From Qipengyuania profundimaris (lineage in GTDB: Bacteria; Pseudomonadota; Alphaproteobacteria; Sphingomonadales; Sphingomonadaceae): DNA of 64,000 nt. Both the position numbers and the translations under genes were made by a program. The stretch is from positions 2,650,631-2,714,630 of the forward strand of contig NZ_JAVAIM010000001.1 of NCBI RefSeq assembly GCF_030717945.1, written 5' to 3'. Shown piece after piece: positions 39,345-44,398 of this stretch. The notes beneath the pieces are model-generated. The model saw nothing but the letters and a program-made list of their open reading frames with translations. It did not search any database and had not been told where the DNA came from. Within the stretch, counting starts at the first letter, position 1. Each line of letters begins with the position of its first letter.

Positions 39345-39845
39345 ATGCCTGCGCCCATGCCCCTCACGCCCGCGATCCTGGTCGATGCAGATGCCTGCCC
39401 GGTGAAGGAGGAGATCTACCGCGTGGCGGAGCGTCACAAGGCCCATGTCCGCGTGGTCAGCAACAGTCCCTTCCGCGTGCCGGTGAGCGAGCGGGTGAAG
39501 CGGGTGGTGGTCTCCGACGGCCCGAATGGACCAAAATACGACGCGGCAGACGACTGGATCGCGGAGAACGCATCCCCAAGCACCGTGGTCATCACCGCCG
39601 ACATCCTGCTGGCCGAACGCTGCCTAAAGGCGGGCGCGACGGTGCTGCGCCACGACGGCAAGCCCTTCGATGCCGCCAGCATCGGCAGCGCGATCGCCAC
39701 CCGCGCGATCATGGAAGACCTGCGCGCCGGGATGGACGGTCCCCTCGGCACGGCCGGAGGTGGCCCGCCCCCGTTCGGCAAGGCGGACCGGTCCAACTTC
39801 CTGCAGGCGCTGGACCGAGTGCTGGTGAAGCTCGCCAGGGCCTGA
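39345..39845 (+). CDS. YaiI/YqxD (DUF188) family protein
   Basis: The 166-residue PIN-like protein has ILVDADACPVKEEIYRVAER at the start and RHDGKPFDAASIGSAIATR and FGKADRSNFLQALDRVL at the end, all DUF188 hallmarks. The conserved Asp residues suggest metal binding; the biochemical role is not settled. Confidence 0.92.
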   Translation: MPAPMPLTPAILVDADACPVKEEIYRVAERHKAHVRVVSNSPFRVPVSERVKRVVVSDGPNGPKYDAADDWIAENASPSTVVITADILLAERCLKAGATVLRHDGKPFDAASIGSAIATRAIMEDLRAGMDGPLGTAGGGPPPFGKADRSNFLQALDRVLVKLARA

Positions 39846-39889: not shown

Positions 39890-40000
39890 TCACATGGACC
39901 GCATGGACCACAGTCCTGGGGCAAAAAAGTTTGAGGGGGTGTGCAGGCGCTCGGCGGACGGTCTTGGGAGGGGCGGAGCGTGAACATGGACCGCATGACA
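39890..40000 (+). repeat. dispersed repeat, copies 2 and 3, in a 187-base gap
   Basis: Bases 39890-39916 are the exact reverse complement of 811-837. A partial third copy begins at 39984 (ACATGGACCGCATG shared with 39892-39905). The period-9 CATGGACC unit appears twice in copy 2. The rest of the gap 39846-40033 is GC-rich and shows no gene. Several copies in non-coding gaps suggest a dispersed family. Confidence 0.7.
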
Positions 40001-40033: not shown

Positions 40034-40549
40034 TCAGGCCGCGAGCGCCCTGACCCTTTCAGCGATTTCGCCGATCGCACACGGCTCCGCCATCGCTCCG
40101 ACACGCGATAGTGCGATTGTTTTCTGATCGGACAAGTCGGCAGCCCTCACGGCATGGAATTGCCATTGGGCAGGCTCGCGATGATCTGCACGCTGCGGAT
40201 CGGCCACACCGTGCCAGCCGAAGACATAGATCTGCGCCGCACGGCCCGGCTCATCGATCCAGTGCAAGCCTTCGTAGCGGCCTGTCCGCGCCTCGATATC
40301 GAAGCGACCGCGATTGGGGCGGAGGCTGGGTTCGTGCCAACTCTGTAAAGCGGCCGACTGCTTCACTTCGAGTCTTACTCCAGCGCCATTCTCGAAATCG
40401 TGCGAAGCCAAATCGGCAGAGCACCACCGCCATTCGGGTTCCAGAACCTGCGCCAAGATTGCCTCTACAAGCGTACCGCGGAAGGTATTGGTGACGAGGG
40501 GCTTGTCGAACAGCGCCGACATCAAGCGCGATTTCAAGTCGGCATCCAT
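40034..40549 (-). CDS. orphan PD-(D/E)XK nuclease-like protein
   Basis: The 171-residue protein (ATG 40549) is unannotated by any name I know. It shows the residue order of the restriction-endonuclease fold: Glu 29 in FRGTLVEAIL, Asp 51 in ASHDFENG and Glu 61-x-Lys 63 in VRLEVKQS. A Trp/Tyr-rich second half follows (EGLHWIDEPG, AQIYVFGWHG). No methyltransferase or helicase gene is next to it. The 382-base gap upstream (40550-40931) is partly AT-rich and carries only a start-less coding remnant, so transfer is possible. Confidence 0.55.
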   Translation of the reverse strand: MDADLKSRLMSALFDKPLVTNTFRGTLVEAILAQVLEPEWRWCSADLASHDFENGAGVRLEVKQSAALQSWHEPSLRPNRGRFDIEARTGRYEGLHWIDEPGRAAQIYVFGWHGVADPQRADHREPAQWQFHAVRAADLSDQKTIALSRVGAMAEPCAIGEIAERVRALAA

Positions 40550-40931
40550 GTTGCGCGTATAGCCGCCGCGCGCAATGCGGTGAAGAAGGAAGCCCGTCCT
40601 CAAGCAGCGAAGCGGTAGGACAACAGAAACTCGCAAGGCGGGCATCGGCTATCACGAGATCGTCGCCGGCCACACCACACCAAGCGAGCTCAGGACACTT
40701 GTCGAAAGACTGGTCCCGGAACAAAAAGGATAGTGTCTCGTATCGAAAAGGATAGCGCCGGAAATCAAATGTGGATTATTTATCCGCCATACATTTTATG
40801 GGTCACCGTAATTTTACCGTATTTGATTAGAAAGCTGGAAGCCTAAGCTATAGCTAGTAATCTCCTTTAATCTTTGTAGAAATTACTTTGACCATTCCCG
40901 CTCGTTAAATCTCATCCGATTTGGAGCGATT

Positions 40932-41411
40932 TTGAAACTGCCGAACGAGACATTATCCCGCGTACATATTACGCCCCGCCAACTCGAATGTATCGAAATG
41001 GTTGGCGAGGGAATGTCGTCCAAGGAAATTGGCAGAAAATTGGGCATTTCCCATCGGACGGTCGAGGCCCATATCTTCGCCGTGATGGATGCTCTCGATG
41101 TCGGCAATCGGGCAGCGGCCGTCCGAAAAATTCAGGAGCTCGAAAGCGCGCAGACAAATATCGCTGAGAGCTCTTCCATCGTTCTGAAGGGCCCAGCGAC
41201 TGAGAATTATCTCATCGCGCCGAAGCCGCCGACTGAACACCAAGTCCGGAGAACGCGCCGTAACGCGTTTTTACCTCCCCCGGGTGGACGTAGGAATACC
41301 GACGGTCCGGCCCAACGGTTGATCTGGATTACGAGGATCACCCTGATCGTTCTCGTCGTCGTCAACGCGATCATTCTGTCCGTTTTGGCGCTATCGGCGA
41401 TGGCAGAATAG
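40932..41411 (+). CDS. LuxR-type HTH protein with C-terminal membrane helix
   Basis: The 159-residue protein has a LuxR-type helix-turn-helix (about residues 10-70: HITPRQLECIEMVGEGMSSKEIG, then GISHRTVEAHIFAVMDALDV). A polar linker follows, and then a C-terminal membrane helix ITLIVLVVVNAIILSVLAL. It has no sensor domain. The start follows GGAGCG, at 10-12 bases. The upstream gap is AT-rich compared with the rest of the window. Two unknown genes follow in the same direction. Confidence 0.78.
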   Translation: MKLPNETLSRVHITPRQLECIEMVGEGMSSKEIGRKLGISHRTVEAHIFAVMDALDVGNRAAAVRKIQELESAQTNIAESSSIVLKGPATENYLIAPKPPTEHQVRRTRRNAFLPPPGGRRNTDGPAQRLIWITRITLIVLVVVNAIILSVLALSAMAE

Positions 41412-42256: not shown

Positions 42257-44170
<1,914 letters not shown>

Positions 44171-44204
44171 TCATGACGGAAGAAGAGCGGATTTATCGCG
44201 CCGC

Positions 44205-44295
44205 CCACTCCCTCCGCCGATGCTAATCGGTTCAGGTTCGACGGGTCGGCGGACTTCAACCGCCCTCTCAGCCTCATGGCTCCCCGGGGATCGGA
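44205..44295 (-). promoter_or_regulatory. TPP (THI-box) riboswitch
   Basis: On the minus strand the leader reads CTGAGAGGG, then ACCCGTCGAACCTGA and GATTAGCATCGGCGGAGGGA, the conserved TPP-aptamer blocks. It ends about 50 bases before the thiC ATG and so should lower thiC expression when TPP is plentiful. Confidence 0.95.
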
Positions 44296-44398
44296 AATGG
44301 TCTAAACCCTGCGCGGCCCTGGCGCAAGGCCAGTGCGAGGGCGGATAGTGAACGCGGCGTTTACCATCATTTAAACGTGTTGTCGTATCGAGCGGCCA

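Follow-up and report, generated by a model that had tools for sequence, protein, structure and literature searches.

A predicted PD-(D/E)XK nuclease gene of Qipengyuania profundimaris and its likely kinship to the BisI family of modification-dependent restriction enzymes

NhoI and Eco15I, two members of the BisI family of Type IIM enzymes, are solitary and cut DNA containing 5-methylcytosine, the C-terminal half of NhoI reading the methyl groups. The BisI and GlaI families are presented as distinctive among modification-dependent enzymes in having no separate sensor domain, and PvuII as the nearest classical relative of the BisI enzymes (PMC11347163). Some BisI homologs adjoin phage genes, among them Bce1273I and Bth171I, which were mapped on pBR322, and one of these enzymes was called a possible intermediate between Type II and Type IIM (PMC4926085). 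Nicking of unmodified DNA is reported for some BisI homologs (PMC8281217), and one modification-dependent enzyme of a different type is known to be encoded by a virus (PMC10101028).

The gene considered here lies in a stretch of 64,000 nucleotides of the Q. profundimaris chromosome (hereafter the window), the features of which are collected in Table 1. Its product, a protein of 171 amino acids (P0001), is read on the minus strand, from 40549 to 40034, the plus strand of the same interval containing two stops. An earlier sequence-only reading had given this interval and had picked out Glu29, Asp51, Glu61 and Lys63 as nuclease residues; both the coordinates and the residue numbers are exact in the minus-strand translation. 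The 171-aa start was preferred to the upstream ATG because, in clear full-length matches to relatives, the alignment starts at one of residues 1-9 of the shorter protein. The left neighbour is taken to be a YaiI/UPF0178-type gene (yaiI), and the minus-strand ORF beyond the right neighbour is presumably thiC; the TPP riboswitch predicted upstream of the latter is barely above the Rfam gathering score.

Table 1. Features of the window around the nuclease gene.
Feature	Coordinates	Strand	Remarks
YaiI/UPF0178-type protein (presumed), left neighbour	39345..39845	+	flank marker
Pair of 13-nt repeats CATGGACCGCATG	39893..39997	+	3' side of nuclease
PD-(D/E)XK nuclease gene (P0001, 171 aa)	40034..40549	-	ORF translation, alignment, AF2 model, Foldseek
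Possible N-terminal extension, ATG at 40645 (203 aa)	40550..40645	-	less likely start
AT-rich gap	40600..40931	.	5' side of nuclease; GC 0.46 for 40600-40999
LuxR/GerE HTH regulator, right neighbour	40932..41411	+	adjoins yaiI too in G398
thiC (presumed)	42257..44158	-	flank marker; TPP riboswitch at 44191-44296

Conservation of the four residues was assessed on two alignments of relatives. Alignment A1 (24 rows, P0001 included) includes 6 of 12 plasmid matches and 1 of 3 phage matches (one of those omitted is the second FP_Brigit record), excludes L011 (stop), L018 and L024 (split gene), L020 and L021 (weak), L022, and L023 and L025 (same protein as L009), and was built without the carriers from the later searches of the genus (60 genomes) and the order (396 genomes). 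Alignment A3 (30 rows) used 26 of 40 viral loci, after removal of duplicates or near-duplicates (L040, L042, L043, L045, L046, L050, L052, L053, L059) and of frame-broken (L066, L067, L069) or truncated (L068, L072) loci. Glu29 and Asp51 are present in 24/24 rows of A1, position 61 is E in 20, Q in 3 and A in 1 (E or Q in 23/24), and position 63 is K in 22 and R in 2. Among the 6864 ordered picks of E, D, E and K available in P0001, only 2 are equally conserved in A1, namely this quartet and its variant with the two E exchanged, and 2/6864 are likewise as conserved in A3. The four residues thus go beyond chance, and computation establishes them as the conserved core, with a conserved active site, of a genuine family. 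The only A1 row that has lost E61 and K63 together is L019, from a genome of another genus (G118): this family member, which adjoins thiC (L100/L019), has A in place of E61 and R in place of K63, and is probably a decayed or repurposed copy. Between P0001 and its nearest relative, dN is 0.23 and dS, which is near saturation, is 1.17 (ratio about 0.2); the window gene is under purifying selection.

The AF2 model of P0001, computed with 30 aligned family members, confidently shows a restriction-endonuclease fold and has a pLDDT of 92.3 and a pTM of 0.86, and that of a phage-clade relative a pLDDT of 94.3 and a pTM of 0.88. In P0001, helix H21-36 is followed by strands 52-54, 59-66 and 82-84, and the residues occur in the order E ... 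D ... (D/E)xK; a predicted structure lacking the nuclease core had been named beforehand as grounds for abandoning the nuclease reading, and the model has that core. Foldseek searches of the PDB with the window model placed NhoI/Eco15I chains at ranks 1-8 (best E 4.8e-3, prob 0.99), with no PDB match reaching E 1e-3 and TM-scores to these chains of only 0.24-0.53. With the phage-clade model, ranks 1-9 were NhoI/Eco15I (best NhoI E 2.6e-4, prob 1.00) and seven such chains fell below E 1e-3. In VIA comparisons, where a Z below 8 may merely reflect a common arrangement, the window model matched NhoI with Z 9.2 (5.7 A over 124), tied with I-Ssp6803I at Z 9.2 (3.1 A over 116) and followed by Eco15I (8.9), A. 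fulgidus Hjc (7.5, 2.6 A over 102), PvuII (7.4) and B. subtilis RecU (6.5). The phage-clade model matched NhoI with Z 10.1 (3.4 A over 115) and Eco15I with Z 9.8 (2.9 A over 111), the homing endonuclease I-Ssp6803I still being tied with NhoI at Z 9.9 (5.2 A over 122). Nothing in the viral structure library matched with an E of 1e-3 or lower. The structural matches lend indirect support to one metal site in which the four residues may meet. Profile and structure searches lead to NhoI/Eco15I, the active site is conserved, and the PD-(D/E)XK assignment stands: P0001 very probably has the nuclease fold, its active site being intact.

At the sequence level, the A1 profile had NhoI as its sole match in the PDB (E 0.032), and the A3 profile did not match NhoI. 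Alignment of A1 by hhalign to eight mREase_II homologs gave E 4.2e-7 (prob 92.7) over 46 columns, from T20 to A67; these homologs are finds of the PADLOC mREase_II model, and the two checked match Eco15I/NhoI at 1.7e-18 to 1.9e-30. The similarity to BisI is confined to 45-46 columns of the catalytic core and leaves the C-terminal half unaligned. The mREase_II model itself matches weakly 2/24 members of A1 (best E 4.1e-4) and 5/30 of A3 (best E 1.9e-4), and it matches neither P0001 nor any other protein of the source genome.

The unnamed family and the BisI enzymes (BisI, NhoI, Eco15I) share a small single-domain PD-(D/E)XK fold, a solitary gene, and the order N ... E ... D ... (E/Q)xK with an N-to-E spacing as in NhoI, and BisI enzymes are the best Foldseek and profile match of the family. 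N21 of P0001 aligns with residue 44 of the NhoI chain, which would correspond to Asn42 if the numbering is shifted by the offset of the catalytic Glu; in the published numbering that Glu is Glu50, and Asn42 contacts the minor groove (PMC11347163). The family differs from BisI in that most of its members have ExK (EVK in P0001), the Q of the BisI motif QxK standing at position 61 in 3/24 rows of A1, and in its own conserved C-terminal half (R103, Y108, F110, W129, F131). It differs also in that the methyl-binding dipeptide was not located: in the MAFFT alignment A6, the C-terminal region of which is unreliably aligned, there is no clear (H/R)(V/I/T/M) dipeptide, and a conserved Q-K-(T/S) lies nearby. 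P0001 is not claimed as a BisI enzyme proper, given its motif, the end of homology past the core and the methyl pocket that was not located; a family sister to the BisI (NhoI/Eco15I) enzymes is the best reading. Searches with P0001 matched no family in Pfam, NCBIfam or PADLOC, and its single-sequence search of the PDB returned only two chance matches (E about 1). Individual members gave scattered weak matches in Pfam, NCBIfam and PHROG, among them DUF6998, GspM and frataxin, and these were taken as chance. No description attributable to the family was found in the literature; sequences are not searchable there, so that an entry under another name or in REBASE is possible.

The nuclease gene is single-copy in the source genome. 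It was found in 2/60 genomes of the genus and in 18/397 at the family level (16 clear after removal of the weak G226 and G364), and an order-level profile search found it in 12/396 genomes, all 12 belonging to the same family; relatives are present on Erythrobacter, Sphingomonas and Novosphingobium contigs. Tblastn searches found distant relatives in 12 plasmid records (72,556 records, E up to 0.01), from Priestia, Streptomyces, Mycobacterium, Rhodococcus, Cellulosimicrobium, Pseudoalteromonas and Sphingobium, and relatives in 3 phage records (50,697 records, E up to 0.1), two of them Faecalibacterium phage FP_Brigit. A scan of viral contigs with P0001 as single sequence found no relative, and a profile narrower than A1 (A2), built from five plasmid and phage relatives, found 40 loci. 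A tree of 34 rows separates a phage/plasmid clade from a sphingomonad clade (support 100*); the window gene groups with three other members (96*), and three of these four genes are near thiC. The protein, which had been called an orphan, is not one: it has relatives in 16/397 family genomes, on plasmids and in phages of other phyla and at the 40 viral loci, and the suggested association with mobile elements holds at the family level, relatives being often carried by phages and plasmids.

At the window itself, the AT-rich gap 5' of the nuclease is confirmed (values in Table 1). The 13-nt repeat occurs in three copies in the window, with at most 1 mismatch, against 0.17 expected (822-834, 39893-39905 and 39985-39997). 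The pair on the 3' side of the nuclease recurs beside yaiI in two genomes of the genus where the nuclease search has no match, complete in G398 (L131) and as a single copy in G403 (L132). The repeats that had been described as a cluster next to the gene thus exist, but they belong to the end of yaiI and do not mark the edge of the nuclease gene. A second species of the genus (G439) likewise has a nuclease (68% identity) flanked by yaiI and thiC, which a Fic-domain gene adjoins, and in two other genera (G164, G118) a family member is found 2.1 and 0.2 kb from thiC. In G398, where the nuclease is unmatched, yaiI and the LuxR gene are separated by 0.4 kb; an alignment of its DNA to the window (about 79% over 301 bases) runs from yaiI into the nuclease gene, of which it reaches the final 75 bases or so. 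A 24-aa match to the C-terminus of the nuclease at that place (E 0.023) proves nothing alone, because an unrelated stretch (L137) scored E 0.009 in the same search; the continuous DNA alignment weakly suggests loss of the nuclease by deletion in G398, with a C-terminal remnant kept. For ten further genomes of the genus, tblastn detected no nuclease copy in the surroundings of yaiI. Transfer had been suggested as a possibility; in the sense of a recent arrival it is not supported, in view of the same flanks in G439, the proximity to thiC in two further genera, a dN/dS of about 0.2 and, weakly, the possible remnant in G398. The window nuclease is probably an old resident of the yaiI-thiC site. 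A mobile-element boundary around the window gene was accordingly rejected, the repeats being the yaiI end and a second species having the gene between the same flanks, and no integrase-like ORF was seen within 4 kb of it (ORFs read by eye).

A constant partner gene was also sought and rejected: a divergent HTH gene (6 loci), a DUF488 gene (3 loci) and ParB/N6-N4-methyltransferase clusters (4 loci) are clade-specific, and none is general. The DUF488-type gene is divergent and next to the nuclease in L093, L094 and L095 (Pfam on two of three). At L090, L091, L101 and L102 (G112, G029, G094), the nuclease adjoins an N6/N4-methyltransferase cluster and a divergent HTH gene of 67-68 aa; the methyltransferase of L090, the one locus tested with Pfam, is fused to ParB, and the cluster also contains genes that we take to be DUF5681-like and terminase-like. 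G094 has three nuclease copies of identical nuclease sequence. The arrangement at these four loci resembles a mobile element of small size, perhaps a satellite-like one.

Of 41 phage and plasmid records, 19, all among the 35 from phages, have a serine or tyrosine integrase domain within 0.76 kb of the nuclease, and in 18 of these 19 it is downstream on the same strand; the 41 records do not comprise viral loci L040, L042, L043, L053, L068 and L072 and still contain near-duplicates. FP_Brigit is annotated with an HTH gene followed by the nuclease and then a large serine recombinase, and HTH-like genes were read by eye upstream of the nuclease in several other records, among those listed. Genes sited between HTH gene and integrase are generally those that a prophage expresses in its lysogen, and a lone nuclease there should therefore spare both host and prophage. 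This siting argues, short of proof, that the nuclease requires some modification or structure which host DNA lacks; counter to it stand the mapping on pBR322 of Bce1273I and Bth171I, which lie beside phage genes, and the nicking of unmodified DNA by some BisI homologs. On the Cellulosimicrobium plasmid pCPRO01 (L031), an annotated restriction-endonuclease gene adjoins the relative and another lies about 4 kb away on the opposite side; these surroundings are possibly a defence cluster.

Linkage to methyltransferases bears on whether P0001 might be the restriction half of a Type II R-M system, with its C5 or N6/N4 methyltransferase elsewhere or lost, or a BisI-like enzyme whose activity extends to unmodified DNA, an explanation which is considered unlikely. 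PvuII, a PD-(D/E)XK enzyme, is among the nearest folds, at a lower similarity (Z about 7) and with the difference that P0001 has no linked cognate methyltransferase of the classical Type II kind at the window (PF00145/PF01555). The sequence-only reading had noticed no partner methyltransferase, and this is accurate for PF00145 and PF01555, the two families searched: the source genome has one match to each, about 677 kb and 1.5 Mb from the nuclease (contig coordinates), and none within 600 kb. Its one unlinked C5 methyltransferase could still serve a Type II enzyme, and this rival is also favoured by two BisI homologs that are encoded next to phage genes and are active on pBR322 (PMC4926085). 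Across 20 sphingomonad loci from 17 genomes (two in G029, three in G094, G342 counted once), 14 have neither PF00145 nor PF01555 within 5 kb (contig ends limit the view in G070, G080 and G129 at least). The other 6 have PF00145 (G179, 3.3 kb off, and G342) or PF01555 (G112, G029 and two copies in G094), N6/N4-methyltransferase domains being within about 2 kb at the four cluster loci described above. Neighbouring methyltransferases are thus of different kinds, which speaks against a single partner. At the G342 locus (L103), the nuclease is split by an insertion, presumably IS66-like, and a C5 methyltransferase follows it immediately in the same orientation, the layout of a classical R-M pair. 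Among phage and plasmid records, many of which are fragments, PF00145 is within 5 kb in only 2/41, the two with identical nucleases. C5-methyltransferase genes above the cut-off are present in 9/16 clear carriers vs 195/381 other genomes (Fisher p 0.80), leaving 7/16 carriers without any; carriers have neither an obligate C5-methyltransferase partner nor an avoidance of such genes.

A structure-specific nuclease (a resolvase of the Hjc/RecU kind or a repair enzyme), or a free-standing homing-type nuclease serving the recombination of mobile elements, is distinctly unlikely. It would account for the integrase domains beside the nuclease in phage records and for the shared catalytic core, with VIA Z from 6.5 to 9.9 over I-Ssp6803I, Hjc and RecU (for Hjc and RecU the likeness is one of fold only, Z 6.5-7.5), and integrase- or resolvase-like ORFs were read by eye near the nuclease in L093, L094 and L095. 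Against it, BisI enzymes come first in Foldseek and sequence profiles point to them, the genomic site varies between clades, the 4 kb around the window gene show no integrase-like ORF on reading by eye, and no intron RNA, such as the group I intron of an I-Ssp6803I-type homing endonuclease, was found in the window at Rfam gathering thresholds. Very improbable is a DenB-like nuclease (T4 endonuclease IV type) degrading unmodified or single-stranded DNA of the host or a competitor. T4 DenB has a similar motif layout, E...WD...EVK...W (AEFFVADWL...WD...VEVK...W), and PHROG 1360 ('DenB-like') matches 9/24 members of A1 (best E 1.5e-5). The profile similarity is nevertheless weak and limited to some members: P0001 has no PHROG 1360 match, only 6/30 members of A3 have one (best E 0.025), and a phage 'DNA endonuclease IV' came no higher than rank 31 among the matches to viral structures (E 0.3). 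DenB is moreover, according to its database record, a lytic-phage enzyme degrading host DNA, and a chromosomal enzyme under purifying selection could hardly be free to cut unmodified host DNA.

The best explanation, favoured tentatively and at slightly under an even chance in its full form, is that P0001 is a solitary restriction nuclease sister to BisI. P0001 would belong to an unnamed family of PD-(D/E)XK DNA endonucleases and be small and probably dimeric. Mg2+ would be bound, and water activated for DNA cleavage, by E29 of the core helix, by D51, and by E61 and K63 of the strand that follows, and the conserved N21 would sit where Asn42 of NhoI contacts the minor groove. Because no PF00145 or PF01555 methyltransferase is near the gene, host DNA would have to be spared by the enzyme's own specificity, and P0001 would act as a solitary restriction enzyme in this manner. 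The simplest way of sparing the host would be to cut only modified foreign DNA, carrying for example 5-methyl- or hydroxymethyl-cytosine. A role in DNA restriction or defence is fairly probable, and a defence role as such plausible; dependence on modification could go either way, with the balance leaning slightly against it. Such an enzyme may protect against viruses that disguise their DNA.

A broader picture, doubtful when taken as a whole, is that of an unnamed, phylum-spanning family of solitary modification-sensing nucleases, carried by phages between repressor and integrase, long kept in sphingomonad chromosomes, and reading DNA with a C-terminal half of its own, unlike that of BisI. If it is true, temperate phages would carry the nuclease to restrict competing phages with modified DNA; if unmodified DNA is cut instead, the surprise would be that phage and host tolerate such an enzyme without a methyltransferase. 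The question thus opened is what small solitary nucleases in prophage lysogeny modules target, and how they spare the host. A family sister to BisI, found in Pseudomonadota, Actinomycetota, Bacillota and phages and nameless in the libraries searched, would represent many candidate defence genes, and may possibly offer new tools for the reading of DNA modifications.
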